From Fibrisoma limi BUZ 3 (GTDB taxonomy: Bacteria > Bacteroidota > Bacteroidia > Cytophagales > Spirosomataceae), in NCBI RefSeq assembly GCF_000296815.2, contig NZ_CAIT01000006.1, positions 1,432,777 to 1,496,776 of the forward strand: 64,000 nt of DNA, given 5' to 3'. Shown piece after piece: positions 1 to 47,565 of this stretch (position 1 is its first letter; each line of letters opens with the position of its first letter). A model generated the notes under the pieces. The model was not told the DNA's origin. It saw only the letters and a program-made list of their open reading frames with translations, and did no database searches. Both the position numbers and the translations under genes were made by a program.

Positions 1-2585
1 TCCTTGCTTACTGGCTTGCGCACGTAGGCGAGGGCATCGCTGTTGATCAGTCGGTTGTCGTCAGAAGCCGAAACAACATGCACCGGGATGTTTTTCAGGG
101 TCTCGTCGCTTTTCATAATCTTGAGCAGATCCCAGCCACTGATGACCGGGAGCCCCATATCGAGAATGATCGCCGACGGCTTGAACTGCCGCGCATACCG
201 CAGTCCTTCGTCGCCCTGCAGCGCAACAATAGTCTTGTATTTATTCTCGCGGGCGAAGTTCTGCACGACCCCGGCAAATAGCGGATCATCCTCAATAATA
301 AGCATCACTTTGTCGTCGGGCGACAGGGTGTAGCGATCGTCGGACAACGCTATTTGTTCAACCAGTTTTATTGGCGTAATTGGTTCCAGCACCGGATCTT
401 CGCTGCTTACAACCGGCGCAGTGGTCTGTACAGGCGCATCGACCGGCAGGTAGATCGTAAACGTACTCCCCTTCCCTACCTCACTGGTCAGGCCCATTTC
501 GCCACCGAGCCGCCGAACCAGTTCCTTACTGATCGATAATCCCAACCCCGTACCGCCGTATTTGCGACTGGTAGAGCCATCGGCCTGTTGAAACGCTTCA
601 AAAATAATCTGCTGCTTCTCTGGCGGAATCCCAATGCCGGTGTCCGTTACCGAAATGGCCAGCACCTGCTTGGCATTACTGAGCGATTCCGAACCGAATA
701 GCTGGTGCGCCGGGGCCGTAGCAAACGACAAGGTTATGGACCCGTCGCGGGGGGTGAACTTAAATGCGTTGGACAACAGGTTCCGGATCACCTGTTCCAG
801 CCGCTGCTTATCCGTCCGGATGGCTGACGGCACCGACGGTTCCGTCTGTTTTACAAACTGAACGCCTTTTTCTTCGGCCACTACGCTGAACATCTGACTC
901 AGGTCGCGGATGATCGACTGTACCGGCACTTCTTCAATATTGATGTCAATCTTACCGGCTTCGATCTTCGACAGATCCAGAATATCGTTGATCAGCTCAA
1001 GCAGGTTTGTGCCCGATTTGTAGATGGTGTTGGCGTATTCAGTCTGTTTATCCGTGAGGTTACCGTTTTTGTTTTCCGACAGGAGTTTTGCCAGAATCAG
1101 GACGCTGTTAAGTGGAGTACGTAGTTCGTGCGACATGTTCGCCAGAAACTCCGACTTGTATTTGCCGGTCACCTCCAGTTCTTTAGCTTTCATGGAGAGG
1201 GCTTTGCGGGCAACCTCAACGGCTTCGTTCCGCTCCTCGAGTTCGGCATTGATCTGGCGCAGTTCTTCTTCCTGCACTTTCAGTTCTTCTTCTGATGACT
1301 GCAGGATGCTGGCCTGGCGGGTAAGCTCTTCGTTCGACTGGCGGAGTTCTTCCTGCTGATTTTCCAGTTCCTCTTTCTGATCCTGAACCTGTTTGAGCAG
1401 GTGCATCACGCGTCGGCGGTCGTCGGCAGCATTCACCGCTACGGCAATGTTGTTAGCGACCGCCCGCAGAAGTGCCAGTTGCTCGTCACTCATTGGACTA
1501 AACGACGCCAGTTCCAGCACGCCTTTCAGTTCCTTATTATACCAGAGAGGCATAAAAACCAGTTGCTTCGGCAGGCCCTGACCGGTTCCTGACTCAACCG
1601 ACCAGAACTCCGTCGGTACGTCGTTAACAACCAGGAGGTTCCGACCGTCGGCAGCCCGCCCGATCAATCCTTCCCGCAACTGGTACTGCTGTGGAGCACT
1701 CGCCGGCAAAGCCACGGATGCATTAAGCTGGAGCTGATGTTGCCCTTCGTTGTAACAGTAAAATGCTCCGGCGGGTAGATCCAGGTAGTCGATAATCGCG
1801 TTTAAAATCTGTTGCGTCAACGAGTCTATTTCATTGATACCCTGCAACGTATCATTGATAGACGAAATCCCCATAAGCAGCCAGTTCTTCTCGGTTGTGG
1901 CCTGGTTGAGTTCTTCAAGCTGCTTATAATTCTGGTAGAGCGATGTTTCGGCCCGGCGACGGCTTTTGAATTCCTTGAGAATAAAATAGATTAACGTAAC
2001 TACAATCAGCAGGATCAGTAAAATACTGGCAATCAGCCCTATACTGGCTCTTCCAATGGCCTCGGCGTTGTCGCGCTCCCGGTGGGCAAGCAGCGCCTTT
2101 TCAATGCGTAAAATTTCGTCGATCTCGATCCGGATACGATCCATCCGAACCTTTTCCTGGGTCATGATCGCGCTGATGGTTGCCGGGGTATATCCACTGG
2201 CATCTTCGCCCAGGCCTTTCCAGAACTGAAGCAGGTCTTCAATGTGCAGTTCCGCCTGTTCTATGCGCCGTTGCTGATCTGAATTGTCGTTGGTGAGTTC
2301 TTTAAGGGCGATGATGGCCGGTTCGATTTTAAGCAAGCCCACATTATAGGGCTCCAGAAACTTTCTGTCGTTCGTAGGCCGGAACCCACGCCGACCAGTC
2401 TCCATGTCGACAAGCAGTTTCTGAATGTTCTCCGCCTGGTTCAACACCTGGTACGTATGTCGTACACGTTCGGCTTCAGCAGATTGATTTTGGAATGTTT
2501 GCAACGCCAGTACCCCCATCAGAATGACCAGGAAAATGGCAATCGAAAAACCAAGGTACAGGCGGTTTAACAAAGAAAGTTTCAT
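1..2585 (-). CDS. Hybrid sensor histidine kinase / response regulator (C-terminus outside window)
   Basis: The frame is open from an ATG at 2585 to the window edge, about 861 codons, so the 3' end is missing. In order I see a first membrane helix (about residues 9-27), a periplasmic CHASE3-like segment, a second helix (about 180-202), a GAF-like domain (about 235-380), a Glu/Gln-rich coiled coil (about 390-480), HisKA with the H-box around His486 (SHELRTP), HATPase with GTGLGL near 675, and a receiver with the phospho-acceptor in ILDMGLP (about Asp809). The receiver's conserved Lys-Pro (RKPVSK) is the last thing visible. This is a membrane kinase with an attached receiver, typical of phosphorelay scaffolds; further receiver or HPt domains may follow beyond the edge. 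The signal sensed is unknown. The neighbouring export operon is transcribed divergently, but its own kinase is encoded inside it. Confidence 0.93.
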   Translation of the reverse strand, partial: MKLSLLNRLYLGFSIAIFLVILMGVLALQTFQNQSAEAERVRHTYQVLNQAENIQKLLVDMETGRRGFRPTNDRKFLEPYNVGLLKIEPAIIALKELTNDNSDQQRRIEQAELHIEDLLQFWKGLGEDASGYTPATISAIMTQEKVRMDRIRIEIDEILRIEKALLAHRERDNAEAIGRASIGLIASILLILLIVVTLIYFILKEFKSRRRAETSLYQNYKQLEELNQATTEKNWLLMGISSINDTLQGINEIDSLTQQILNAIIDYLDLPAGAFYCYNEGQHQLQLNASVALPASAPQQYQLREGLIGRAADGRNLLVVNDVPTEFWSVESGTGQGLPKQLVFMPLWYNKELKGVLELASFSPMSDEQLALLRAVANNIAVAVNAADDRRRVMHLLKQVQDQKEELENQQEELRQSNEELTRQASILQSSEEELKVQEEELRQINAELEERNEAVEVARKALSMKAKELEVTGKYKSEFLANMSHELRTPLNSVLILAKLLSENKNGNLTDKQTEYANTIYKSGTNLLELINDILDLSKIEAGKIDINIEEVPVQSIIRDLSQMFSVVAEEKGVQFVKQTEPSVPSAIRTDKQRLEQVIRNLLSNAFKFTPRDGSITLSFATAPAHQLFGSESLSNAKQVLAISVTDTGIGIPPEKQQIIFEAFQQADGSTSRKYGGTGLGLSISKELVRRLGGEMGLTSEVGKGSTFTIYLPVDAPVQTTAPVVSSEDPVLEPITPIKLVEQIALSDDRYTLSPDDKVMLIIEDDPLFAGVVQNFARENKYKTIVALQGDEGLRYARQFKPSAIILDMGLPVISGWDLLKIMKSDETLKNIPVHVVSASDDNRLINSDALAYVRKPVSK

Positions 2586-3140
2586 TAAAGGAAAGTTACA
2601 GCAAATAAGGTTACAATATTAACATACGATTACGTTTAGCTCATTTACTTCAGGCAGTTATTATATAAAACCGCCTTCAGACCTGCATTCATGTATCAGT
2701 AAGCCGGACTTGCATCACTAATTGTTCGTACGTAGCTTTGAACGTATCAGATTTATATTGGTAATCTTCCTATAGACGAATAGATTGCCATTAGTAACGC
2801 ATCTCTTTGTTTAAAACTGTCTTTTTTAGATTTCAAGACAACCTGTTTCGTTACAGACCAATATATGAAATAATTATCAAAGTAAAGTACATTATAAGTT
2901 TCCTAAATTATCCATTTGTATCATATCAATCTTTGACCTATTCCCTTAATTCTGGCTCCTGATTACGCCCTTCCGCCGGGACAATCCATCAACATCCGGG
3001 CCCTTTACGATCAGCTCGCTTTCAACAGTACTATTCTGGCAGCCGCACTCCCAACACGAAAATCAGGCTACCATACATGCCGGGTCTCTACCTGTTTACC
3101 CGCTAAAACAGGGGTAACGTCCGTGCGATTTTAGACAACC
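2586..3140. other. AT-rich intergenic region with a possible gene remnant
   Basis: About 550 bases between divergent genes. The first 350 bases are AT-rich and should hold the kinase promoter; no clear TAnnTTTG element was found. From about 2956 to 3131 the GC content rises and one plus frame reads like protein (APDYALPPGQS... ending at a TAG), with no start codon. This could be the eroded end of an old gene, but I cannot name it. Confidence 0.35.
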
Positions 3141-3156
3141 TGTGCGATTTCGCACA
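3141..3156. promoter_or_regulatory. Palindromic upstream activator site candidate
   Basis: A perfect inverted repeat: TGTGCGA, two T residues, TCGCACA. A further half-site (GTGCGA) lies at 3123-3128 on the same face about two helical turns upstream. It is about 54 bases upstream of a -24/-12 promoter candidate, a normal place for an enhancer-binding protein. The operon's own NtrC-type regulator (9909-11279) is the obvious candidate ligand. The binding is inferred; the palindrome is seen. Confidence 0.6.
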
Positions 3157-3209
3157 CTTTTTTTAGTCCCTCACCAACCCAACCAACTGATTACCAATTC
3201 TGTACCTAT

Positions 3210-3224
3210 TGGCACATCATTTGG
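3210..3224 (+). promoter_or_regulatory. Sigma-54 type (-24/-12) promoter candidate
   Basis: The sequence TGGCAC-N5-TTGG matches the sigma-54 consensus TGGCAC-N5-TTGC except for the last base. Transcription would begin near 3235, which argues for translation from the ATG at 3251 rather than from an upstream TTG (3209) or the ATG at 3233. The operon encodes a sigma-54-dependent activator, which fits. Confidence 0.6.
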
Positions 3225-3250
3225 CTTCTTATATGCAAACGAATCGACTA

Positions 3251-4507
3251 ATGGATAGAGAGCTTGCGCCGGAAATCACCCGTCAGAAACGAACCAAAAG
3301 TATCGTCATCGTCACGCTGGGCATCGTCGGTGTGGTAGCGGTGCTGGCCTTACTCCGAACTTACCTCAGCACCTCCGTCGAAGCCTCAAAAATCCGGACG
3401 ACCGTTGCCCAGATCGGCCCCGTCGAAAATACGCTGAATGCGACTGGGGAAGTGATTCCGGCATTCGAGCAGGTGATCGTAAGCCCAATTCAGGCCAGTG
3501 TGCAACGGGTGCTTCTGACGCCAGGTACCCGCGTCAAACCAGGTCAGCCGATCATGGAACTTGACAAGTCGTTATCCCTCATCGAACTCGAACGCCTGAA
3601 AGACAAACTTGCCCTGAAGCGCAACGGCATCGAGCAGCTTCGCCTGCGGCTCAACAAGGAATTTTACGACGCCGACATAAAAGACAAAATTAAATCGCTC
3701 AACATCAACCGGCTCCGGGCCAACGTAGAGGATACCCGCCGACTCCTGAAAGCAGGCGGCAGCACGCAGGAAGACGTAACAAAAGCCGAAAACGAACTCC
3801 GTATCGCTGAACTTGAAAAGAAACAGCTGGAAAACGACCTGACCTACAGCCGTCAGTCGATGGGAGCCAGCCTGAAAGAGTCGGAACTACAGGCACAGAT
3901 TGAAGCCAAAAACCTCCAGGAACTGGAACAGAAACTTCGGCAGGCCGATATCCTTGCCGACCGGCCGGGGGTGCTCACGTGGGTCAACGACCGCATTGGT
4001 GCGGCCGTCAATACGGGTGATCTGCTGGCTAAGCTTGCCGATCTCGGCAGCTTCCGGATCGATGGTTCCTGCTCTGATATGTACGCCGATCAGGTCAAAG
4101 TGGGCCTCCCGGTCATTGTAAAAATCAACGAAACCAGCCTGCGGGGTACGATTACCCAGGTGAAGCCATCGGTCCAGAATAACGTAGTGCAGTTTGCCAT
4201 TCAACTCGACGACAACCGCCATACGTCGCTCCGTCCCAACATGAAAGTAGAAGTTTTTATTGTCACTACCCGGGTTGGGAAAGCCGTGCGGGTGGCCAAC
4301 GGGCCAGCCTTCAAGGGCAAACGTCGGCAGTACGTGTATGTGCTGAACAAGGGCGTGGCCGAACGCCGGGACGTCGAGATTGGCCTGACGAACTTCGACT
4401 GGGTCGAAATCAGGAGCGGTATCCAGCCAGGCGAGCAGGTGATCATAACGGACCTCAGCCAGTACGAAAACTCCGAAACGCTGACGATTACACCGACCGA
4501 CCGATGA
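3251..4507 (+). CDS. HlyD/MacA-family periplasmic adaptor (membrane fusion protein)
   Basis: About 418 residues from the chosen ATG. It links an inner-membrane ABC permease to an outer-membrane channel. A short cytoplasmic basic start (RQKRTKS) precedes one membrane helix (IVIVTLGIVGVVAVLALL), followed by a lipoyl-like half (GTRVKPGQPIMELDKS), a long alpha-helical hairpin rich in Glu, Lys and Leu, the second lipoyl half (DRPGVLTWVNDRIGAAV) and beta-barrel segments with KVEVFIVTTRVG. First gene of the export operon; it overlaps the next gene by four bases (ATGA), which implies coupled translation. The start was placed downstream of the predicted sigma-54 transcription start. An antimicrobial, lipid or peptide could be the cargo; nothing in the sequence decides. 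Confidence 0.9.
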   Translation: MDRELAPEITRQKRTKSIVIVTLGIVGVVAVLALLRTYLSTSVEASKIRTTVAQIGPVENTLNATGEVIPAFEQVIVSPIQASVQRVLLTPGTRVKPGQPIMELDKSLSLIELERLKDKLALKRNGIEQLRLRLNKEFYDADIKDKIKSLNINRLRANVEDTRRLLKAGGSTQEDVTKAENELRIAELEKKQLENDLTYSRQSMGASLKESELQAQIEAKNLQELEQKLRQADILADRPGVLTWVNDRIGAAVNTGDLLAKLADLGSFRIDGSCSDMYADQVKVGLPVIVKINETSLRGTITQVKPSVQNNVVQFAIQLDDNRHTSLRPNMKVEVFIVTTRVGKAVRVANGPAFKGKRRQYVYVLNKGVAERRDVEIGLTNFDWVEIRSGIQPGEQVIITDLSQYENSETLTITPTDR

Positions 4508-6009
4508 AACCATTTTTCTCACCCTTCCTGATAGTGGATAAACTAATTAAATTCCTGCTGGAACGAACCAGACTGGCTAGACTGCTGCCGCTGTTCTGCA
4601 TCACTACGCACATAACCGTCGCTCAGACTCAGCGCCTGACACTGGAGGATGTCGTATCAATCGCGCAGGCTCAGTCGGTGGCCGCCAAACAGGCTGTGAC
4701 TACCCAGCGCACCAATTACTGGAAATACCGCTCTTTTCTGGCCGACTACAAACCCCAGTTGAGTCTTGATGGTACGTTGCCCGGCTTTACGCGTTCGTTT
4801 GTTGAGGTTATCCAGCCCGACGGTACCATTGCCTACCAGCCGGTATCGCTCAATAACTCGGCCCTGAACCTGTCGCTGAGCCAGAACATCGCCATGACCG
4901 GCGGCAGCATCTTCATCCAGAAGGAGATCAAACGGTTTGATAATTTCCTCGAAAACCAGACGTTGTACAACGGTGTTCCATTCAGCATTGGTCTCATTCA
5001 ACCCCTGTTTCGCTTCAACCCCATGCGGTGGGAGCGCCGGATTGAGCCGCTGAAGTATCAGGAAAGCAATCAGCAACTGATCGAATCACGCGAAGAGGTC
5101 TCGCTTAATGCGACAATGTTTTACTTCGACCTGCTTGTGGCTCAGGTTAATCTCCAGATTGCGGAGAAGAACCTGATGAACAATGATACGCTGTACAAAA
5201 TTGCCCGGAAAAAACTGGAACTGGGACGCATTTCCCAGAATGACCTGCTTCAACTGGAATTGAGCGTACTGACCGCCCGCAAAGACCTGGCGTCGGCAGA
5301 GCAGACGGCGGAGGTTGCCTCGCTAAAACTGAAAACGTATATCGGCTATCGCAACGACAGCCGCGTGGAACTGGCTCTTCCTAACCAGATTATCCCGTTT
5401 ACCGTCGACATCCGCCGGGCCATCGACGAAGCCTTTGCCAACCGGGCCGCATCCATCGGCTTCCGGCGCCGACTCCTGGAAGCTGAACGCGAGGTCGATA
5501 AGGCCCGTAAAGAAAACGGCCTGAATGCCTCGATGCAGGCGTCGTTTGGTCTGTCGAACCGGGGCGCCCGGATTGGCGATGTGTACGTCCGGCCGCAGGA
5601 CAGCGAGATATTGGAAGTACGTTTTTCGGTCCCCATCATGACCTGGGGCCGGGCGCAGGCCCGCACCGAAACGGCGAAAGCCAACCAGCAACTGACACAG
5701 CAGTCGGTCGAGCAGGACAAGCTAACCCTGGAGCAGCAGGTTTTTACGCAGGTTACGCTGCTTCAGATGCTACAGAAACAGGTGAAACTGACCGCCGAAG
5801 CTGACCAGATCGCCCAGAACCGCTACCAGATCGCCCAGAACCGCTTTATTCTCGGCGACCTGAGTGTAACAGACCTGGGCATTGCGACGCAGGAAAAAGA
5901 CCGCGCCCGACGCGACGCCGTGGTTGCCCTTCGTGACTACTGGCAGGCGTATTACACGCTCCGTCTGTTGACCCTGTATAATTTTGAAACAAACCAGAAG
6001 ATTCAATAG
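4504..6009 (+). CDS. TolC-family outer-membrane efflux channel
   Basis: 501 residues, close to the usual TolC-family size. The N-terminus holds a late hydrophobic stretch (LLPLFCITTHITVAQ) that can act as a signal peptide ending near AQ, followed by the typical opening QRLTLEDVVSIAQAQS. Two similar halves follow with long amphipathic helices (for example KKLELGRISQNDLLQLELSV and RYQIAQNRFILGDLSVTDL, the classic repeat motif of the family). It should form the outer-membrane tunnel for the adaptor encoded just upstream. Start overlaps the previous stop; the next gene is separated by a palindromic repeat. Confidence 0.93.
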   Translation: MKPFFSPFLIVDKLIKFLLERTRLARLLPLFCITTHITVAQTQRLTLEDVVSIAQAQSVAAKQAVTTQRTNYWKYRSFLADYKPQLSLDGTLPGFTRSFVEVIQPDGTIAYQPVSLNNSALNLSLSQNIAMTGGSIFIQKEIKRFDNFLENQTLYNGVPFSIGLIQPLFRFNPMRWERRIEPLKYQESNQQLIESREEVSLNATMFYFDLLVAQVNLQIAEKNLMNNDTLYKIARKKLELGRISQNDLLQLELSVLTARKDLASAEQTAEVASLKLKTYIGYRNDSRVELALPNQIIPFTVDIRRAIDEAFANRAASIGFRRRLLEAEREVDKARKENGLNASMQASFGLSNRGARIGDVYVRPQDSEILEVRFSVPIMTWGRAQARTETAKANQQLTQQSVEQDKLTLEQQVFTQVTLLQMLQKQVKLTAEADQIAQNRYQIAQNRFILGDLSVTDLGIATQEKDRARRDAVVALRDYWQAYYTLRLLTLYNFETNQKIQ

Positions 6010-6085
6010 CGAAGGGCCTGGGGCAAGGGGTTAAAATTACCCCAAACCCGACGCCCCAAGCCCTTCGCCCCAAGCCCCAAAAACC
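6009..6085. repeat. G4-rich palindromic repeat at an operon junction
   Basis: Outer arms 6009-6024 and 6053-6068 are complementary at 15 of 16 positions (GCGAAGGGCYTGGGGC). An inner stem pairs GGGGT (6027-6031) with ACCCC (6039-6043). The element contains the core ATTACCCCAAACCC and ends in CCCCAAGCCCC just before the ATG at 6086. It starts at the stop codon of the TolC gene and fills the whole gap. Confidence 0.8.
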
Positions 6086-6850
6086 ATGATCACCCTACAA
6101 AACATCGAGAAAGTGTACCGCACCAGCAGCATCGAAACACTGGCGCTCAACAACATTAACATCAATATTCGCAAAGGCGAGTTCGTGTCGATCATGGGCC
6201 CGTCGGGTTGCGGCAAGAGTACGCTCCTGAACATCATGGGCCTGCTCGACGAACCCTCGAAGGGCAATGTCGCGATTGATGGGCAACTGGTGAAATCGTA
6301 CCGCGATAAGGAACTGGCCGCGCTACGTAACCAGAAGATTGGCTTGATTTTCCAGAGCTTTCACCTTATCAACGACTTGTCGGTGCTGGACAACGTCGAG
6401 ATTCCGCTGTTGTACCGTTCCCGGAACGGAGGTTCAGCCAGTGGGAAATCGCGGCTGGACCATGCGAAAGAAGCCCTGGAAAAAGTTGGTCTGAGCAACC
6501 GCACGAAGCACTTTCCGCGACAGTTATCGGGTGGGCAGAAACAACGCGTTGCCATTGCCCGCGCCATCGTTGGCAACCCCGAAATCATCCTCGCCGACGA
6601 ACCGACCGGTAACCTCGACAGCGTGATGGGCAATGAAATCATGAGTATTCTACAGGGTCTGAACAACGACGGCGCAACGATCATCATGGTAACGCACGAC
6701 GAGTCGATGGCTAAGAAAACAGACCGGCTTATCCGGCTCTTCGACGGCACACAGGTAGGTGACTCGGTGCTAAGAGCCGGGGGCGCAGGGCCTGGGGACA
6801 ATCCCGGTCACTTTACCCACAACCCTACTTCCCAGCTCCTTAACCCCTAA
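6086..6850 (+). CDS. ABC transporter ATP-binding protein, LolD/MacB type
   Basis: 254 residues. Walker A (GPSGCGKST, about 38-46), Q-loop (IFQSFHLI), ABC signature (LSGGQKQR), Walker B with the family-typical ILADEPTGNLDS and the switch His (MVTHDE) are all present, so this is an intact ATPase. It should power the two FtsX-type permeases encoded next, feeding the adaptor and TolC-like channel. The family normally ends near RLIRLFDGTQVGDS; here about 28 extra residues (Gly, Pro and Asn rich) are encoded by a palindromic repeat that starts near 6774 and supplies the stop codon. That tail is unlikely to be part of the fold. Confidence 0.95.
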   Translation: MITLQNIEKVYRTSSIETLALNNININIRKGEFVSIMGPSGCGKSTLLNIMGLLDEPSKGNVAIDGQLVKSYRDKELAALRNQKIGLIFQSFHLINDLSVLDNVEIPLLYRSRNGGSASGKSRLDHAKEALEKVGLSNRTKHFPRQLSGGQKQRVAIARAIVGNPEIILADEPTGNLDSVMGNEIMSILQGLNNDGATIIMVTHDESMAKKTDRLIRLFDGTQVGDSVLRAGGAGPGDNPGHFTHNPTSQLLNP

Positions 6851-6868
6851 GCCCCCAGCCCCCAGCCC
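6774..6868. repeat. G4-rich palindromic repeat overlapping the ABC ATPase 3' end
   Basis: Left arm 6774-6798 (GGGGGC...GGGCCTGGGG) and right arm 6841-6868 (CCCCTAAGCCCCC... ending AGCCCC) are imperfectly complementary. The stop codon TAA at 6848-6850 lies in the right arm, and the ATG of the next gene (6870) follows it directly. Same style as the element at 6009-6085, but degenerate. Confidence 0.65.
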
Positions 6869-6869
6869 C

Positions 6870-8111
6870 ATGCTAACGAACTACATAAAAATTGCCTGGA
6901 AGGTGTTGCTCCGGCATCCGTTCTACACCTTCATTACGCTCTTCGGCATCAGCCTGACACTGACGGTGCTGATGGTGCTGACATCCTTTATCGACCATCT
7001 GGTGGGCAGCCATTACCCCGAAAACAAGCGGGATCGGATACTGTACGTGCAGAAGGTAGCTCTCCGGGACTCGCTCCGGCAATCGCAGACCGTCGGCCCC
7101 ATGAGTTATGAGTTTACCCAACGCTACATTTCGTCATTGAAAACACCCGAGAAAGTAGCGGTCGCTACCCTGTTCGATTTTGCCAATGCCTACGTCAATG
7201 GCAAGCGGATCGAACTAAAGCTAAAACACACAAACGCGGAATTCTGGGAGGTAACTGATTTCGACTTTCTCGAAGGGAAGCCGTATAACCAGGATAACCT
7301 GGCAAATGGCGACAACGTAGTCGTCATCACGGATGAACTGAAGCGGCAATACTTTGACAACAGCGATGAGTCCGTGGTGGGTAAACCCATCGAGATCGAC
7401 AACCGGACATTCCGGGTGATTGGGGTGGTGCGCGGTGCGCCGGTAACACGGCCTATGACGGCCAGTGATGTGTATCTTCCCGTTACGGCCAGCAACCGCG
7501 ACGGCAAAAGCAAAGGCTTTATGGGGAGCTACGCAGCGTTGATCCTGGCTCGCCAGAAGTCGGATATGTCGGCTATAAAATCCGAATATGACCAGGCCAT
7601 CAGCCGCATTCCTCTGCCCGGCGATTCAAACGGTTTTCGCTTTGCCATACTCGAGACCAGCGCCGATACGTACCTGGAAGCCTGGCTGCATACGTTCTTT
7701 CAACGCCCGGCCAGCAGCATTTTCTACTCTGTTGTCGCGCTGTTTATGCTACTGTTTATGAGCCTGCCGGCCATCAACTTGGTCAACCTCAACGTAAGCC
7801 GTATCATGGAGCGGGCTTCCGAGATTGGTATTCGGAAAGCTTTCGGGGCTCCCGCCAAAACCTTGGTCTGGCAGTTCATCATTGAAAATTTGTTCATTAC
7901 GTTCATTGGTGGCACCATTGCGCTGGTATTTTCGGCGATCATCATCAGCCTGATCAACAACAGCGGCTGGATTGCCAAAGCCGACCTGACCCTCAATCTA
8001 TCGGTCTTTGCCATCAGCATACTGGTGTGCCTCGTCTTCGGGTTTCTGTCGGGGGTGGCTCCGGCGATGCGTATGGCGAAACTCAATATTGCAGACGCGT
8101 TAAAATCTTAA
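6870..8111 (+). CDS. FtsX/MacB-type ABC permease (first of two)
   Basis: 413 residues with the usual layout: a membrane helix at about 19-40 (FYTFITLFGISLTLTVLMVLT), a large periplasmic MacB-like domain (about 45-275) and three C-terminal helices (FYSVVALFMLLFMSL; LFITFIGGTIALVFSAIII; LSVFAISILVCLVFGFLSG). The FtsX signature after the second helix reads IMERASEIGIRKAFGA. It should pair with the second permease as a heterodimer around the ATPase. Lies 19 bases after the ATPase stop, within a palindromic repeat. Confidence 0.93.
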   Translation: MLTNYIKIAWKVLLRHPFYTFITLFGISLTLTVLMVLTSFIDHLVGSHYPENKRDRILYVQKVALRDSLRQSQTVGPMSYEFTQRYISSLKTPEKVAVATLFDFANAYVNGKRIELKLKHTNAEFWEVTDFDFLEGKPYNQDNLANGDNVVVITDELKRQYFDNSDESVVGKPIEIDNRTFRVIGVVRGAPVTRPMTASDVYLPVTASNRDGKSKGFMGSYAALILARQKSDMSAIKSEYDQAISRIPLPGDSNGFRFAILETSADTYLEAWLHTFFQRPASSIFYSVVALFMLLFMSLPAINLVNLNVSRIMERASEIGIRKAFGAPAKTLVWQFIIENLFITFIGGTIALVFSAIIISLINNSGWIAKADLTLNLSVFAISILVCLVFGFLSGVAPAMRMAKLNIADALKS

Positions 8112-8113
8112 AG

Positions 8114-8206
8114 AGCGAAAGAGTGAATGAATGAAAGAGCGATTCGCTCTCTAACTCCCAGGCTTTCCGCCACTCATTCACTCTTTCGCTCATTCACTCT
8201 TTCGCT
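8114..8206. repeat. Palindromic repeat of a second family
   Basis: The 17-base arm AGCGAAAGAGTGAATGA at 8114-8130 has perfect reverse complements at 8174-8190 and again at 8190-8206. An inner short palindrome (GAGCGATTCGCTC, 8137-8149) is present. The element fills the gap between the two permease genes and keeps one frame open, so an upstream in-frame ATG at 8127 would add 30 repeat-derived residues to the next protein. Confidence 0.8.
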
Positions 8207-8216
8207 TTTTACAACC

Positions 8217-9410
8217 ATGCTACCTCATTTATTCAAATTAATGTGGAACAAGAAGCGGACCCACATGCTCCTGATTGTGGAGATTCTGGCTTCGTTTCTG
8301 GTCCTCTTCGGCGTAACCAGCCTCATTATTTTCAACCTGCGCAACTACCAGGAGCCGATTGGCTTTGACTATCAAAATGTCTGGACGCTGAACTTCAACG
8401 CCCGCGATCAGCCGGACTCAACCGTTGGGGATGTCATGCAGCGGGTTAAAGAACGCATTCTGACGTATCCGCAGGTAGAGTCGGCTACGTTGTTTGGCAG
8501 CAATGCCCCGTATTCCATGAACATGTCCAATGGTAACGTATCGCACGGCAATGCCAGCATACTGTCGAACCATTACCGCTCGGACCTTGACATGACCAAA
8601 ACGCTGAACGTACCGGTGCTGGAAGGGCGCTGGTTCAATAAATCCGACGAGTCGGCCGATGTCCGGACGATGGTCATCAATACACCGCTTAAAGAAGCGC
8701 TGTTTGGGGATGAATCTCCGCTCGGCAAGCAGATCACGTTCGGCGGCCCCGGCGATAAGCACAAGAAAGAAGATTACTTCACGGTTATCGGCGTTATCGG
8801 CAATTTCAAAACGCAGGGCGAGTACATGACCAATGCACCGGGACTGTTTCAGCTCAACAAAGGCGAAGCCCGGGCGTACAACCGGACAGTTCTGTTGAAG
8901 GTTAAACCCGGCACCGACGCTTCCTTTGAAGCCCGGCTAACCAAAGACCTCGGTATGCTGACGAAGGACTGGACCCTTGAAGTGTCGTACATGGAAAACC
9001 AGCGACAGTCAACGCACAACATCACGCTCGTACCGGTCACCATCTTCCTGATCATTAGTGGTTTCCTGCTCATCAACGTAGCACTCGGCCTGTTCGGCGT
9101 CCTGAACGTCAGCATTACCAAACGCCGGTCGGAGATTGGTTTACGGCGGGCTTTAGGCGCTACCGGCAACGGTATTTCGAAGCAGTTCGTCGGCGAAATC
9201 TGGGTACTGGCTACGTTTGGCCTGCTGATCGGCCTGCTGTTTGCCGTGCAGTTTCCGCTCATGAACGTGTTTGACCTTGAATCGGGTGTGTACGTAACCG
9301 CCATCGTTGTATCCATCGTAGTCATCTACCTGATTGTTACCCTCTGTGCCCTCTTCCCCAGCCGCCAGGCCGCCGAAGTCCAGCCGGCTATCGCCCTGCA
9401 TGAGGAGTAG
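8217..9410 (+). CDS. FtsX/MacB-type ABC permease (second of two)
   Basis: 397 residues from the ATG at 8217, which opens with the family-typical MLPHLFKLMWNKKRTHMLL. An in-frame ATG at 8127 was rejected because the extra residues come from the palindromic repeat. One N-terminal helix (LLIVEILASFLVLFGVTSLII), a periplasmic domain of about 230 residues, then three helices with the signature ITKRRSEIGLRRALGA. Partner of the preceding permease. This protein ends at VQPAIALHEE, a normal end for the family. Downstream is the inverted-repeat unit holding the four-helix-bundle gene. Confidence 0.92.
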   Translation: MLPHLFKLMWNKKRTHMLLIVEILASFLVLFGVTSLIIFNLRNYQEPIGFDYQNVWTLNFNARDQPDSTVGDVMQRVKERILTYPQVESATLFGSNAPYSMNMSNGNVSHGNASILSNHYRSDLDMTKTLNVPVLEGRWFNKSDESADVRTMVINTPLKEALFGDESPLGKQITFGGPGDKHKKEDYFTVIGVIGNFKTQGEYMTNAPGLFQLNKGEARAYNRTVLLKVKPGTDASFEARLTKDLGMLTKDWTLEVSYMENQRQSTHNITLVPVTIFLIISGFLLINVALGLFGVLNVSITKRRSEIGLRRALGATGNGISKQFVGEIWVLATFGLLIGLLFAVQFPLMNVFDLESGVYVTAIVVSIVVIYLIVTLCALFPSRQAAEVQPAIALHEE

Positions 9411-9416
9411 GTTGGT

Positions 9417-9450
9417 ATGGGGCTTGGGGCATGGGGTTTGGGGTAAAAGG
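9417..9450 (+). repeat. Left inverted repeat of the four-helix-bundle unit
   Basis: Begins six bases after the permease stop. Its first 15 bases (ATGGGGCTTGGGGCA, 9417-9431) are the exact reverse complement of 9896-9910 at the other end of the unit; similarity continues through GGGGTTTGGGGTAA with mismatches. GGGGTTTGGGGTAA is the reverse complement of the palindrome-family core. Confidence 0.8.
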
Positions 9451-9480
9451 TTGCGGGCTAAGTGCAAACTGGTAGTTTTG
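9451..9480 (+). promoter_or_regulatory. Bacteroidota-type promoter inside the unit
   Basis: TTG at 9451-9453, a 19-base spacer, then TAGTTTTG at 9473-9480 matches the Bacteroidota sigma-A pattern TTG-N(17-23)-TAnnTTTG. It would start transcription about 20 bases before the ATG at 9508, so the small gene need not rely on the operon promoter. Confidence 0.55.
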
Positions 9481-9507
9481 TTGCTTACACCGTAACATTC
9501 AAGAGTC

Positions 9508-9876
9508 ATGATAAGAGGCTTCCGTTTTGAGAACCTGGAAATTTGGCAGATCGGCATTCAGATAGGCGATGAGTTATTTGACATTGCGGACACCTTAGAA
9601 CAGAAAAAGCTGTATCGTTTTGCAGAGCAACTCCGCGGTGCCGGCTTGAGCATCTCCAATAATATTGCCGAAGGGTCAGGTTCTGTGTCGAAGAAAGAAT
9701 TCAGCCAGTTCTTAAATTTTGCGCGTCGGTCCTGTTACGAATGTGCCAACATCATTATTGTGTTAGAGCGTAGAGGTCATATTGAAGAAGAATTAAAACG
9801 GATACTATTTGGCCGCTTAGACGAGATAAGCCGCAAGATTACCAATTTCCAAAAGTCTCTCCTACCACCAGCTTAA
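9508..9876 (+). CDS. Four-helix bundle protein (S23/IVP family)
   Basis: 122 residues, the usual size for the family first found in intervening sequences of some bacterial 23S rRNA genes. Diagnostic stretches are FENLEIWQ at the start, LRGAGLSISNNIAEGSG in the middle and FLNFARRSCYECANIIIVLER in the third helix. The family forms a small four-helix bundle; diversity-generating-retroelement Avd proteins share the fold. The molecular role is not established. The gene interrupts the export operon between the second permease and the regulator, is flanked by inverted repeats, and has its own promoter candidate. Stop codon overlaps the right repeat. Confidence 0.92.
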   Translation: MIRGFRFENLEIWQIGIQIGDELFDIADTLEQKKLYRFAEQLRGAGLSISNNIAEGSGSVSKKEFSQFLNFARRSCYECANIIIVLERRGHIEEELKRILFGRLDEISRKITNFQKSLLPPA

Positions 9877-9910
9877 CCCCAAGCCCTACGCCCTTTGCCC
9901 CAAGCCCCAT
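9873..9910 (-). repeat. Right inverted repeat of the four-helix-bundle unit
   Basis: Starts at the stop codon of the four-helix-bundle gene and runs into the ATG of the regulator (9909). Bases 9896-9910 are the exact complement of 9417-9431. The remaining part (CCCCAAGCCCT...) pairs imperfectly with the inner half of the left repeat. A transcript covering both could fold into one long stem with the gene in the loop. Confidence 0.8.
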
Positions 9911-11279
9911 GCTCCTCATCATCGACGACGACATAGCGGTTCAAACCTCGCTTTCCCTCCTGTTTCGGAAGGAAGGATTCACGGTGCGCGTTGCCGATGG
10001 ACCGTTTGAAACCCGCGAGGTACTGGCCGACGAGATACCCGAGCTAATCCTGCTGGACATGAACTTCTCCGTCGATACGTCCGGCAACGATGGCCTGCGG
10101 CTGCTGCGCGAGATTCGGGAGCGCGTTCCTAACGTACCGGTTATTTTGATTACGGGTTGGGGCAGCATCGAACTCGCCGTCGAAGGCATGAGGGCCGGTG
10201 CCAAAGATTTTATTACGAAGCCCTGGCAAAACGACCACCTGTTGCAGTCAGCCCGTACGGCGCTGAACCTGGCCCAGACCAAACCGGCATCGCCCAACCG
10301 CCAAAGGCTCGACCAGCAATATCAGTTTGACCACATCGTCGGCGAAGACCCTAAATTACTGGACATTCTGTCCACCATTGGCCGCGTGGCTGCCACGGAT
10401 GCGCCGGTATTGATTACCGGCGAAAGCGGTACGGGCAAGGAGTTGATTGCCGAAGCCGTTCACCAGAACAGCCGACGGAAACGCCAGCCGTTTGTCAAAG
10501 TCAACCTGGGAGGCATTTCATCGACCCTTTTCGAAAGTGAGCTGTTCGGCCACGTACGCGGTGCTTTCACCGACGCCAAATCGGACCGGATCGGGCGGTT
10601 TGAACTGGCCAACAAGGGTAGCATTTTCCTGGACGAAATCGGGGATCTGGACGCATCGAGCCAGGTCAAGCTCCTGCGGGTGTTGCAGGATCGGACGTTT
10701 GAACCGCTGGGCAGCAGCAAAAGCAAGACCGTCGACGTGCGGGTGATCTGCGCGACCAACCGCAACCTGGAAGATATGGTGGCGAAAGGGACGTTTCGGG
10801 AAGATTTGTTTTACCGTATCAACCTCATTACGGTTAAACTACCGGCCCTGCGCGAACGCCCGAACGATATCCCAACCCTGGTGCAGTTCTTTGTCAACAA
10901 CCTGAAAACGATCTACGGTCGCCCCGACCTGCGCGTCAGTCCGGCGGCCCTGAACTGGCTCAAAAATTTGTCGCTGCCCGGCAACATCCGCCAGTTGAAA
11001 AACATCGTCGAGCGGGCCGTTCTGCTGTCGATCAATGATGAATTAGCTATTGCTGATTTTGAGAAACACCTAACCCCAGGCCCCACGCCCTCGGCCCCAA
11101 GCTCACTGCCTCCCGTAGGAACCATGACACTGGAGGAAATGGAATACCAGATGATTCGCCGGGCGATGGAGTTCCACCAAAACCGTGTCTCAAAGGTTGC
11201 CCGGGCGCTCGGCATCACGCGTTTTGCCCTTTACCGGCGATTAGAGAAATTTGGCATTCCGTACACTACTGACGAATGA
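9909..11279 (+). CDS. NtrC-family sigma-54-dependent response regulator
   Basis: 456 residues. Receiver domain (1-120) with acidic pocket Asp6-8, phospho-acceptor Asp50 (LLDMN) and Lys104. AAA+ domain with Walker A GESGTGKE (171-178), the sigma-54 contact loop as GAFTDA (218-223, usual form GAFTGA) and Walker B SIFLDEIGD (238-246). A Fis-type helix-turn-helix (about 427-448) closes the protein. A Pro/Ser-rich linker (388-404) between the AAA+ and HTH domains is encoded by a half copy of the G4-rich repeat. Being in the same operon as an export system and a kinase, it most likely controls this operon from the palindrome at 3141-3156. Confidence 0.95.
   Translation: MLLIIDDDIAVQTSLSLLFRKEGFTVRVADGPFETREVLADEIPELILLDMNFSVDTSGNDGLRLLREIRERVPNVPVILITGWGSIELAVEGMRAGAKDFITKPWQNDHLLQSARTALNLAQTKPASPNRQRLDQQYQFDHIVGEDPKLLDILSTIGRVAATDAPVLITGESGTGKELIAEAVHQNSRRKRQPFVKVNLGGISSTLFESELFGHVRGAFTDAKSDRIGRFELANKGSIFLDEIGDLDASSQVKLLRVLQDRTFEPLGSSKSKTVDVRVICATNRNLEDMVAKGTFREDLFYRINLITVKLPALRERPNDIPTLVQFFVNNLKTIYGRPDLRVSPAALNWLKNLSLPGNIRQLKNIVERAVLLSINDELAIADFEKHLTPGPTPSAPSSLPPVGTMTLEEMEYQMIRRAMEFHQNRVSKVARALGITRFALYRRLEKFGIPYTTDE
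11071..11105 (+). repeat. Half copy of the G4-rich repeat inside the regulator gene
   Basis: The stretch CTAACCCCAGGCCCC...GGCCCCAAGCTCA resembles the right arm of the repeats before 6086 and 9909. It lies in frame within the linker-coding region of the NtrC-type gene and is followed, as at the junction copies, by an ACCATG (11122-11127), here internal. The protein remains open through it. Confidence 0.55.
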
Positions 11280-11350
11280 CTTATGGCCATAGATTATCCC
11301 AATTTTCGCAGCTTTTTCTGTATTTGGCGTAACCCGTGGTGTCATCATTT

Positions 11351-12643
11351 ATGAGCTTCCGTACCCGCTTCGCCCTTTATATTCTTGCCGTTCATGCGGT
11401 TATCATCTACCTGACATTTCGACTGCTACAGGACAACAAAGTACTGTTCATTGCGGCCGAGGTGCTGGTCCTTGTATCGACCGTTATCGCGATTCAATTA
11501 TACCGTGAATTCCGCCGACCCTCCGATTTCATCGCGTCAGGTATTGAAGCCATTAAAGACAAAGATTTCACCATCAAGTTCGTATCGACTGGCAACCCCG
11601 AAATCGATCAGTTGATCGACGTGTATAACCTGATGATCGACCAGCTACGGACCGAACGGACGAAACAAATGGAACAGCAGTTTTTCCTCGAAAAGTTGAT
11701 CGATGCCGCTCCCATCGCCATCCTGATTTTCGACTTTGACGACCGTATCGCGACCATCAATCCCCGGGCCAGCCGACTGCTCCAACTCTCGCTGGAGCAA
11801 TTGGAACAGCGCACCCTGGCCGATGTTGACCACCCAATTCTGTCGTCACTAATCGACCTTGAAGACGGCGAAGCGCGCACCATTAAAACCAACGGAATCG
11901 AGACGTACAAAATCCAGAAATCATTCCTCATGGACCGGGGATTCCGGCGCTCGTTTCTGATGATTGAGGAATTGACGGGTGAGATCCTGGACACGGAAAA
12001 GAAAGCCTACGGCAAGGTAATCCGGATGATGGCACACGAGGTCAACAACTCCATCGGGGCGGTAAACTCCATCCTAGACGTAACGCAGTCGACCATGGAC
12101 CGACCCGAGGAAAACGACCTCAGGCACGCCCTGCGGGTAGCCATCGAACGTAACAACCGGCTCAACTACTTCATGCGCCGGTTTGCCGATGTTGTTCGGC
12201 TGCCGCAGCCGCACAAGCAACCTGCCGACCTGAACGAACTGGCCCGGGACGTAACGCAGTTGATGCAACCCCAGGCCGAAGCCAGGGGCGTTACGTTGGC
12301 GTGCCTGCCGTTCCAGGCACCTGTTGTCCGGGCGATTGATACGGGTCAGTTTGAACAGGTGCTGGTCAACGTTATCAAAAACGCCATCGAAGCCAGCCGG
12401 GCAGGTCAGGCGGTTGAGGTGGTGGTTAACGAACACCTGCTTACTGTCCGCGACAATGGCACCCCCATCCCCGACGAGATTGCCGCGAATCTGTTCAACC
12501 CGTTTTTCAGTACGAAGCCCGATGGTCAGGGTATCGGCCTGACTCTGACCCGCGATATTCTAATGAATCACGGATTTACGTTTTCACTAAAAACGAACGC
12601 CGAAGGCTGGACGGAATTCGTGATTATTCATCACCCTGGTTGA
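11351..12643 (+). CDS. NtrB-like sensor histidine kinase
   Basis: 430 residues from the ATG at 11351 (GTG codons at 11336 and 11339 are possible alternatives). Two adjacent hydrophobic segments at the start (FALYILAVHAVIIYLTF; VLFIAAEVLVLVSTVIAIQL) anchor it, followed by a HAMP-like region, a PAS-like domain (LIDAAPIAILIFDFDDRIATIN), the H-box MAHEVNNSIGAV, and a HATPase domain with N-box NVIKNAIEAS, VRDNG and GIGLTLTRDIL. The H-box form HEVNNS is typical of kinases paired with NtrC-type regulators. The gap to the regulator is 71 bases. It should phosphorylate the regulator encoded just upstream. Confidence 0.92.
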   Translation: MSFRTRFALYILAVHAVIIYLTFRLLQDNKVLFIAAEVLVLVSTVIAIQLYREFRRPSDFIASGIEAIKDKDFTIKFVSTGNPEIDQLIDVYNLMIDQLRTERTKQMEQQFFLEKLIDAAPIAILIFDFDDRIATINPRASRLLQLSLEQLEQRTLADVDHPILSSLIDLEDGEARTIKTNGIETYKIQKSFLMDRGFRRSFLMIEELTGEILDTEKKAYGKVIRMMAHEVNNSIGAVNSILDVTQSTMDRPEENDLRHALRVAIERNNRLNYFMRRFADVVRLPQPHKQPADLNELARDVTQLMQPQAEARGVTLACLPFQAPVVRAIDTGQFEQVLVNVIKNAIEASRAGQAVEVVVNEHLLTVRDNGTPIPDEIAANLFNPFFSTKPDGQGIGLTLTRDILMNHGFTFSLKTNAEGWTEFVIIHHPG

Positions 12644-12695
12644 GGCAGGAATATCTACAAAATCGCTAAGTTTAGAACAGCAAACATCTCTTCCC

Positions 12696-13109
12696 ATGAA
12701 AACACTGCCTTCTCTTCTACTCCTGATCGCCTGCCTGACGTTGTCTGGCTACGCATCAGCCCAGGTATCTGCAGACCAACTTCAAAGCCGAACCACGTAC
12801 AGGCGCATCGACAACCCGGCCAAACCATTGGCTAATGACCTTCAGGAATACGCCGGAACGTACAGCTTCCCCAGTGGTGGCCAACTTCAGAAATATACGG
12901 TGACCGTAAAAGACGGCGAACTGTATGGCGAAGCCGACAGCTATGGCAGCAACAAACTCCTGAAGCAGGCCGAGCCCGATACGTATAAATCGACCAGTTC
13001 GTATGGTTCCATTATCGTCTTTAACCGGGATGCTACGTCGAAGGCGGTGACGAGCCTGGTCCTTAAGCTGATGGGCCAGGAAGGCACAGCAACGAAAGAT
13101 AAACCCTGA
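12696..13109 (+). CDS. Small secreted protein, DUF3471-like
   Basis: 137 residues with a clean signal peptide (MKTLPSLLLLIACLTLSGYASAQ). The mature part has LQEYAGTYSFPSGGQLQKYTVTVKDGELYG, which resembles the beta-rich DUF3471 module found after beta-lactamase-like domains, here standing alone. Function unknown. Fifty-two bases after the kinase gene on the same strand, so it may be the last gene of the export operon, although a separate promoter is possible (TAAGTTTA near 12667). Confidence 0.7.
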   Translation: MKTLPSLLLLIACLTLSGYASAQVSADQLQSRTTYRRIDNPAKPLANDLQEYAGTYSFPSGGQLQKYTVTVKDGELYGEADSYGSNKLLKQAEPDTYKSTSSYGSIIVFNRDATSKAVTSLVLKLMGQEGTATKDKP

Positions 13110-44938: not shown

Positions 44939-44986
44939 ATTACCCCAAACCCCTGAAGCGGTCGGCCGTTGCCGGGGTTTGGGGTA
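44939..44986. repeat. Palindrome with the G4-family core between convergent genes
   Basis: Perfect 13-base arms TACCCCAAACCCC (44941-44953) and GGGGTTTGGGGTA (44974-44986) with an inner GTCGGCCGTTGCC loop. It shares TTACCCCAAACCCCTGAAG with the element at 47476. Placed between the ends of two convergent genes, it may serve as a bidirectional terminator. Confidence 0.8.
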
Positions 44987-46865: not shown

Positions 46866-46951
46866 TTTTACCGCAAAGACGCAGAGGAATCGCAAAGTGC
46901 GCTAATATACGTTGTGCTCTTGGCGTTTTTCTTTGCGTCTTTGCGGTAAAA
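46866..46951. repeat. Palindromic repeat of a fourth family
   Basis: Arms 46866-46886 and 46931-46951 match at 20 of 21 positions (TTTTACCGCAAAGACGCARA). The type CCGCAAAGACGCAAAG is a common intergenic sequence in many bacteria. It sits between the phosphoesterase gene start and five bases from the stop codon of the short FecR-like gene. Confidence 0.75.
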
Positions 46952-47475: not shown

Positions 47476-47565
47476 ATTACCCCAAACCTCTGAAGGGGCT
47501 TAGCGCTGCTATCTCCAGAATCCTGGCCTGAGCGGAGCTAAGCCCCTTCAGGGGTTTGGGGTAAT
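47476..47565. repeat. Large palindrome of the G4-rich family
   Basis: Arms 47476-47504 and 47537-47565 are complementary at 28 of 29 positions and include ATTACCCCAAACCYCTGAAG. The loop is about 32 bases. Located 23 bases past the LytTR gene stop, it is the longest copy in the window. Confidence 0.85.

Follow-up and report, generated by a model that had tools for sequence, protein, structure and literature searches.

A 494-base unit at positions 9417–9910 of the window, by which we mean the whole 64,000-nucleotide stretch of Fibrisoma limi BUZ 3 DNA under analysis, consists of a left arm, a promoter-like site, a four-helix-bundle (fhb) gene and a right arm. What is such a gene doing between inverted repeats in the spacer of a transport operon, and do gene and repeats belong together? 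The comparisons described below suggest that the unit is probably one copy of a widespread element, in which an fhb gene is enclosed by a pair of inverted arms, each made up of some four to five heptads specific to the clade, and which moves and is accompanied by gene-less satellites.

The unit and its neighbours

The unit occupies the gap between a permease gene ending at 9410 and a regulator gene starting at 9909, and its right end shares the first two bases of the regulator ATG. A preliminary description, made from the sequence alone, had the unit fill this gap, with perfect 15-base inverted ends that match imperfectly further in, a TTG-N19-TAGTTTTG promoter inside and a gene of the S23/IVP family, and all of these features are borne out. 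Segment 9417–9431 (ATGGGGCTTGGGGCA) is a perfect inverted repeat of 9896–9910, and the extended ends pair at 76–81% over 27–34 bases. The arms are better described as heptads, and the right arm overlaps both the fhb stop codon and the regulator ATG. The features of the unit and its surroundings are as follows.

6009–6068, no strand: gene-less palindrome of the same heptad type as the unit, in the TolC–ATPase spacer of the same operon
6836–6870, no strand: C-rich heptad arm of the same type as the unit, between ATPase and first permease
8109–8211, no strand: gene-less palindrome, situated between the two permeases, of a different type (GAGCGAAAGAGTGAATGA)
8127–9410, plus strand: second permease, the upstream neighbour, which we take to be MacB-like; annotated start inside the palindrome
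9417–9446, plus strand: left arm, with the perfect 15-base end 9417–9431 and four heptads GGGGCTT, GGGGCAT, GGGGTTT, GGGGTAA (9419–9446)
9451–9480, plus strand: putative promoter-like site, presumably of the Bacteroidota type; TTG at 9451–9453, 19 bases, TAGTTTTG at 9473–9480
9508–9876, plus strand: four-helix-bundle (fhb; S23/IVP) gene of 122 amino acids, assigned from profile matches, predicted helices and PDB relatives
9874–9910, minus strand: right arm, with five heptads GGGGCTT, GGGGCAA, AGGGCGT, AGGGCTT, GGGGTTA (9908–9874) and the perfect end 9896–9910
9909–11279, plus strand: response regulator, the downstream neighbour, presumably of the NtrC type

The inverted-repeat score, defined as the best local match, in inverted orientation, of one 250-base flank to the other, is 15 for the window fhb gene. 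This is the top value of 364 open reading frames (ORFs) of at least 100 amino acids in 464 kb, as called by a purpose-made finder, and it is reached by nine of 4000 random intervals of the unit's size. In the sister species the counterpart fhb gene scores highest of 344 ORFs in 400 kb. A score of at least 12 is attained by 11 of the 364 and 13 of the 344 ORFs, fhb genes included. A transcript of the unit would fold better than its own shuffles (z = −4.2). The promoter-related motif TANNTTTG lies within 150 bases upstream of 17 of the 94 family fhb genes listed versus 8.6 in shuffles, an enrichment of only twofold.

Palindromes occupy several spacers between the genes of this one apparent operon. 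The nearest gene-less relative of the unit in the window is 6009–6068, where 27 bases are 93% complementary to the left arm. In two relatives the spacer between ATPase and first permease holds an fhb gene of the window clade. The type of the palindrome at 8109–8211 is the arm type of two other fhb genes of the window genome (L003 and L004). Palindrome sequence makes up the initial 30 codons of the ORF of the second permease (8127–8216), and the true start is probably 8217, because the match in the sister genome begins at query residue 30. The unit had also been described as sharing repeats with gene-less palindromes of the window. This is right for 6009–6068, which has the same heptad type, and less so for the TTACCCCAAACCCC palindromes at 44.9 and 47.5 kb, which share 14 bases and look like another family. 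The latter two (44939–44986 and 47476–47565) appear to belong to a more conserved family, CCCCAAACCCCTGAAGGGGC/CCCCAAACCCCTGAAGGGGCTTAGCGCTGCT, with the C-rich arm first; the CCCCAAACCCCTGAAGGGGCTTAGCGCTGCT family has four strong copies in 464 kb as well as the shorter one at 44.9 kb. Elsewhere in the window, a tandem array at 21079–21848 has a repeat unit of 69 bases, equal to 23 codons if it is read in frame.

The fhb protein

The fhb ORF matches PF05635 with 92 bits (cut-off 33.8) and TIGR02436 with 83.8 bits (cut-off 24), and PF05635 is the only family found in a Pfam scan of the product. A single-sequence structure model predicts four helices with a mean pLDDT of 79.6. PDB entry 2GSC is found as a relative by sequence, and 2GSC and 2RLD are the best matches by fold with a TM-score of about 0.5; each of these entries holds five chains, A–E. 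The Xanthomonas relative is described as a pentameric ring in the part of PMC4990558 that deals with it, where S23/IVP proteins are also said to have no known function. For 18 of 23 pairs, those with unsaturated dS, dN/dS is 0.02–0.20, from which we conclude that the protein is kept under strong constraint. To our knowledge no catalytic site or enzyme activity has been assigned to it, a point against the mobile-element reading. Averaged over fhb proteins, the net charge is only +1.8, which gives no strong hint of nucleic-acid binding.

Of 296 Bacteroidota genomes searched, 235 have an fhb gene, and such genes also occur on cyanobacterial plasmids; 50,697 phage records give no match at E 1e-3. 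The window genome has three further fhb genes, which also have arms, of different sequences. In several genera pairs of fhb genes lie about 2.7 kb apart (G018:C1, G037:C12, G052:C1, G073:C22, G077:C138, G117:C158), perhaps as one conserved locus with two filled spacers.

Inverted arms with a seven-base period

Inverted arms with a score of at least 12 flank 76 of the 94 family fhb loci listed, versus 6.0% for cross-paired flanks, and phylum-wide they flank 17 of 30 fhb loci versus 6.7%. The 94 loci are among the best-scoring matches of a longer list, from which L045, L053 and L062, three of a set of 38 family loci, were left out as having no usable ORF by the finder employed, and one more as having a short flank. 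The 18 family loci and 13 phylum loci without arms at score 12 speak against the mobile-element reading. Identity within arms is 0.58 at a lag of seven bases and 0.56 at a lag of 14, compared with 0.31–0.33 in shuffles; of 66 arms, 43 have 7 as their best lag and 15 have 8. Strongly periodic flanks number 105 of 188 for fhb genes, 36 of 726 for other ORFs and one for shuffled fhb flanks, with a median periodic run of 37 bases, or about five units. The period is mostly 7 or 8, the sequence varies by clade (TCGGCTN, TTAGCTN, GCTNTAN, GAGTTTAT, GAGTATT and others), and the G-rich arm is the one upstream of the gene in 74 of 80 loci.

The arm pair of one locus matches each other no better than it matches the arms of an ortholog, which again counts against the mobile-element reading. 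Concerted evolution between the arms of a locus is accordingly not supported (18.2 within versus 19.5 across loci, where some of the across-locus values are raised by coding flanks that the loci share in opposite orientation).

GxxExxY/PF13366 nuclease-like genes (L069–L098) likewise lie between inverted repeats, of the ACCACAGAG, CGCAGAG and ACAGGATTT types; the palindrome at 46866–46951 of the window, of the CGCAAAGACGC type, resembles the arms of some of them. Their repeats reach a score of at least 12 in 19 of 30 loci versus 12% for cross-paired flanks, and five of 60 flanks have a strong period. We kept these genes apart from the fhb units because a strong heptad period is rare among them; they are possibly a second class of such elements.

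Gene and heptads are inherited together

From named genomes we listed the best 80 wide relatives of the window fhb gene, of which 79 were usable (L416 has a short flank). Their sources are Bacteroidota and metagenome bins titled, for example, Desulfobacterales, Nitrospirae, Ignavibacteria and Kiritimatiellaeota. Three tandem units of the form RGNGYNN adjoin 75 of these best 79 relatives, versus two of the 92 other family fhb genes listed. The triples stand upstream in the sense direction in 62 cases and in the antisense direction in nine, whereas far windows of the same loci have them in 22 of 420, on either strand. Grouped by flank homology, the best 79 relatives have the motif in 25 of 26 groups. 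It is also found at each of the 30 listed loci without Bacteroidota in their titles, all of them in metagenome bins, one unclassified, so that contigs may be mislabelled; one of the bins (L378) has a single-contig chromosome.

Two results of this comparison stand against the mobile-element reading. Inverted arms with a score of at least 12 are present in 53 of the best 79 relatives and in 26% of cross-paired flanks, a background that is expected if all of them share one heptad. Beside the operon copies a strict RGNGYNN triple is found in only six of 12 (two damaged, misplaced windows). Across different-locus pairs of the family, arm similarity increases with protein similarity (permutation P = 0.0055), in a weak correlation (rho 0.12, reached by about ten of 2000 permutations) that involves few independent clades. 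Overall, the comparison of loci shows gene and arms to be inherited together across sites, genera and, by the labels of the bins, phyla.

Gene-less copies

In the window genome we counted 40 occurrences of the motif GGGGCNTGGGGC, compared with three of its reversed control. We read 30 of the 40 matches by hand; they amount to 24 sites, one with the fhb gene, and 14 of the other 23 are palindromes of the type. A second motif, GAGTTTATGAGTTTATGAG, is found at a distance of over 1.5 kb from the nearest fhb gene in six of 12 genomes with the cognate fhb clade versus two of 210 without it, and the association persists within genera (P = 3e-4). The cut-off for the cognate clade (at least 62% identity to the query) was chosen after a gap in the match list had been seen, and some of the GAGTTTATGAGTTTATGAG copies are tracts and not palindromes. 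For the one type tested, in 222 genomes, these counts show that gene-less copies go with the cognate fhb gene, judged by motif matches.

Turnover at the same spacer

The best 30 orthologous spacers, from 83 genomes with the permease, hold an fhb gene in six cases, a gene-less palindrome in 17 and neither at that strength in seven, at a palindrome score threshold of 28 (L154 and L157 are identical). Of the gene-less spacers 18 of 24 are more palindromic than all 200 shuffles, and their palindromes fall into several unrelated types (TGAATAATGAATGA, CAGAGTTAAGCAGAG, AACAACGAACAACC and others), some common to several genomes. In 13 gaps that could be aligned between the two species of the genus, at least one genome has a palindrome; by eye, four of them have palindromes of differing sequence in both, and others have the same type in both or a palindrome in one genome only. 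The unit had been suggested to be an element with gene-less relatives, and at this site it behaves so. Neither of two patterns named as fatal to that suggestion, a spacer with no empty site among relatives and other fhb genes without repeats, was found, as the spacers vary and most other fhb genes have arms of other types.

The window fhb clade is present in 12 of 222 family genomes (E 1e-25). Ten of the copies lie between the second permease and the regulator and two between the ATPase and the first permease; a thirteenth copy, in G125, is damaged. Between the window genome and its sister the second permease is 90% and the NtrC protein 95% identical, and the fhb protein 68%. In the sister species the fhb gene of this spacer is in inverted orientation and its arms are different (TTGCAGGG type); it groups with a copy of another genus that has the same TTGCAGGG-type arms. 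A tree uniting the two fhb genes is rejected (AU p = 0.0007), in a test that was run after an earlier result had suggested the outcome. The tree of the 13 copies, several branches of which are weak, requires at least three changes of orientation and at least two of spacer. Against 74 wide relatives (L355, L357 and L359, operon copies already counted, and two rows outside the length range being omitted) the 13 copies form one clade with support 98/89, which points to a single arrival in the operon, after which copies passed from genome to genome, each time into the same operon. Two old operon copies with differential loss could mimic such a replacement, less simply. The genome comparison thus shows fhb lineage, orientation, arm type and presence to vary at this site among relatives, and it suggests that the unit moves between spacers and between genomes. 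Elsewhere in the window genome L003 and L004, close fhb relatives with the same arm type, lie 1.4 kb apart, which looks like a local hop.

The chief rival to a moving element is a regulator of mRNAs with heptad hairpins. The fhb protein would bind these hairpins, the gene-less palindromes would be control sites in spacers, the arms of the gene itself would be autoregulatory and nothing would move by itself. The strong constraint on the protein and the presence of palindromes in the spacers of one apparent operon agree with this, and a ring fold family would suit the binding of multiple RNA repeats. Nevertheless, one spacer has several unrelated palindrome types among relatives, and both the fhb lineage and the arms differ in the sister species, neither of which resembles a conserved control site; the wide spread of gene and arms is left unexplained as well. 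The turnover at the same spacer argues against regulation as the only role of fhb, and we regard this explanation as unlikely.

Comparison with known elements

The intervening sequences of 23S rRNA share with the unit the protein family, complementary ends and a sporadic distribution, according to the relevant part of PMC4990558. They differ in that the unit lies in a protein-operon spacer, has heptad arms and has a constrained ORF, whereas the ORF of the rRNA element described in that part is decaying (PMC4990558). The unit is not one of them, and the tie drawn in the preliminary description does not extend beyond the protein family: there is no Rfam match at the loci of 20 relatives, and positions 2500–13000 of the window gave only a miRNA match far below the cut-off. 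The rRNA sites suggest another explanation, in which fhb genes home into the loops of pre-existing host hairpins, as rRNA intervening sequences replace tetraloops; the known sites are helices 9, 25 and 45, as listed in PMC4990558 where it treats them. An fhb gene and gene-less palindromes do alternate at one site, as such homing would have it, but arm type tracks the fhb clade across loci, genera and, by labels, phyla, and we consider palindromes as the mere target improbable.

In RAYT–REPIN systems a gene stands between inverted repeats, the cognate repeat is lineage-specific and gene-less palindromes are scattered in intergenic spacers. The fhb gene similarly has inverted cognate repeats, and gene-less palindromes occur together with a cognate fhb gene in the genome (for one type, not all palindromes). 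The proteins are different, fhb being a four-helix bundle and RAYT an HUH enzyme, and the fhb arms are degenerate tandem heptads that vary widely between clades, while REPs are conserved. The unit is not itself a RAYT–REPIN, since the Pfam scan finds PF05635 only and no Y1/HUH protein. Our best reading is that it would work most like one, by analogy, with an unrelated protein. The fhb protein may recognise its own heptads and promote their spread; if so, the gene-less palindromes would be its satellites, as REPINs are of RAYTs.

An insertion sequence or MITE was rejected, as the Pfam scan found no transposase gene in the unit. Alternatively, a different enzyme, such as a Y1/HUH transposase, might move the arms, with fhb as cargo. 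The lack of a known catalytic site in fhb would fit, and PF01797 has two matches in the window genome, each close to the 23-bit cut-off. These matches are weak (24.4 and 22.7 bits), and an HUH transposase was not retained as the engine; the arms, moreover, are specific to the fhb clade and not to a transposase. We hold this to be still less probable than homing into hairpins. A diversity-generating retroelement was likewise rejected: Avd of these elements has a suggested homology to the fhb family in the part of PMC10053308 concerned, but no reverse transcriptase adjoins the unit, the neighbours of which are transport operon genes and a response regulator.

Heptad repeats and a possible heptad code

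Heptanucleotide repeats of the kind that we take to be the STRR class are degenerate seven-base tandem units, as are the fhb arms. Passages of PMC4692102 describe the Xanthomonas GGGAATC and Nostoc GGGGAYT repeats as seven-base tandem units, many of them intergenic, report that Xanthomonas heptads pair as inverted repeats in 70 and 75 cases, and state that the functional role of heptad repeats ‘remains to be elucidated’. In the P6b region of the Nostoc trnL intron, one heptad class is described, in the part of the literature concerned, as having repeatedly replaced another. For Beggiatoaceae the repeat is TAACTGA, and the corresponding part of PMC4679880 speculates that a repeat-binding protein might be the mobile element. 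The crystallised fhb protein, XCC0516, is that of Xanthomonas campestris (presumably strain ATCC 33913), the species with GGGAATC arrays; its genome has 186 patterns of this repeat (PMC4692102). That heptad tracts are ordinary microsatellites near fhb genes by accident, through slippage or chance, deserves next to no credence: heptads are a common bacterial repeat length (PMC4679880, in the passage on repeats), but inverted pairing, fixed polarity, clade specificity and the controls all stand against it.

The terms ‘four helix’ and ‘S23’ are absent from PMC4692102, as are ‘four-helix’ and ‘S23’ from PMC4679880, and the passages on Xanthomonas, Nostoc and Beggiatoaceae heptads draw no link to fhb genes. 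We recognised no literature that ties fhb genes to heptad arms, in a search whose coverage excludes most subscription journals. The parts were already known; for their pairing we saw no precedent in the literature searched. By lineage, this pairing offers S23/IVP proteins and heptad repeats a candidate partner each. Should mobility prove true, the units would be a class of selfish elements of about 0.5 kb, without a recognisable transposase, that rewrite operon spacers.

It is possible, although we would not call it probable, that fhb reads a heptad code. A pentameric ring would bind about five heptads of the G-rich strand, one seven-base unit per subunit, each lineage having its own word; the roughly five heptads per arm would then match the five subunits. 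The bound form, a DNA hairpin on the lagging strand or an RNA, would be the intermediate for insertion into another spacer. The protein would make and spread the orphan heptad hairpins of cyanobacteria, Xanthomonas and Beggiatoaceae, and the element, not the repeat alone, would be mobile.

Twelve of 18 records of complete plasmids with an fhb gene were read, 11 cyanobacterial and one from Riemerella. Inverted arms with a score of at least 12 flank the gene in 11 of the 12 (ten of 11 cyanobacterial, one of one Riemerella; a raw count in which L435 and L436 are homologous). The arms are mostly of period 7, for example GGGAACA, AGGGTGT and CAGGAGT, with GGGAACA arms at two Nostoc plasmid fhb genes. 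They are similar in kind to the repeats described above for Nostoc, Xanthomonas and Beggiatoaceae. Several of the plasmid genes lie in tight operon spacers, twice between CRISPR-cas genes: of the armed fhb genes L443 and L446, both on cyanobacterial plasmids, the first lies between cas6 and cas4, the second between cas10 and a cmr3-family gene.
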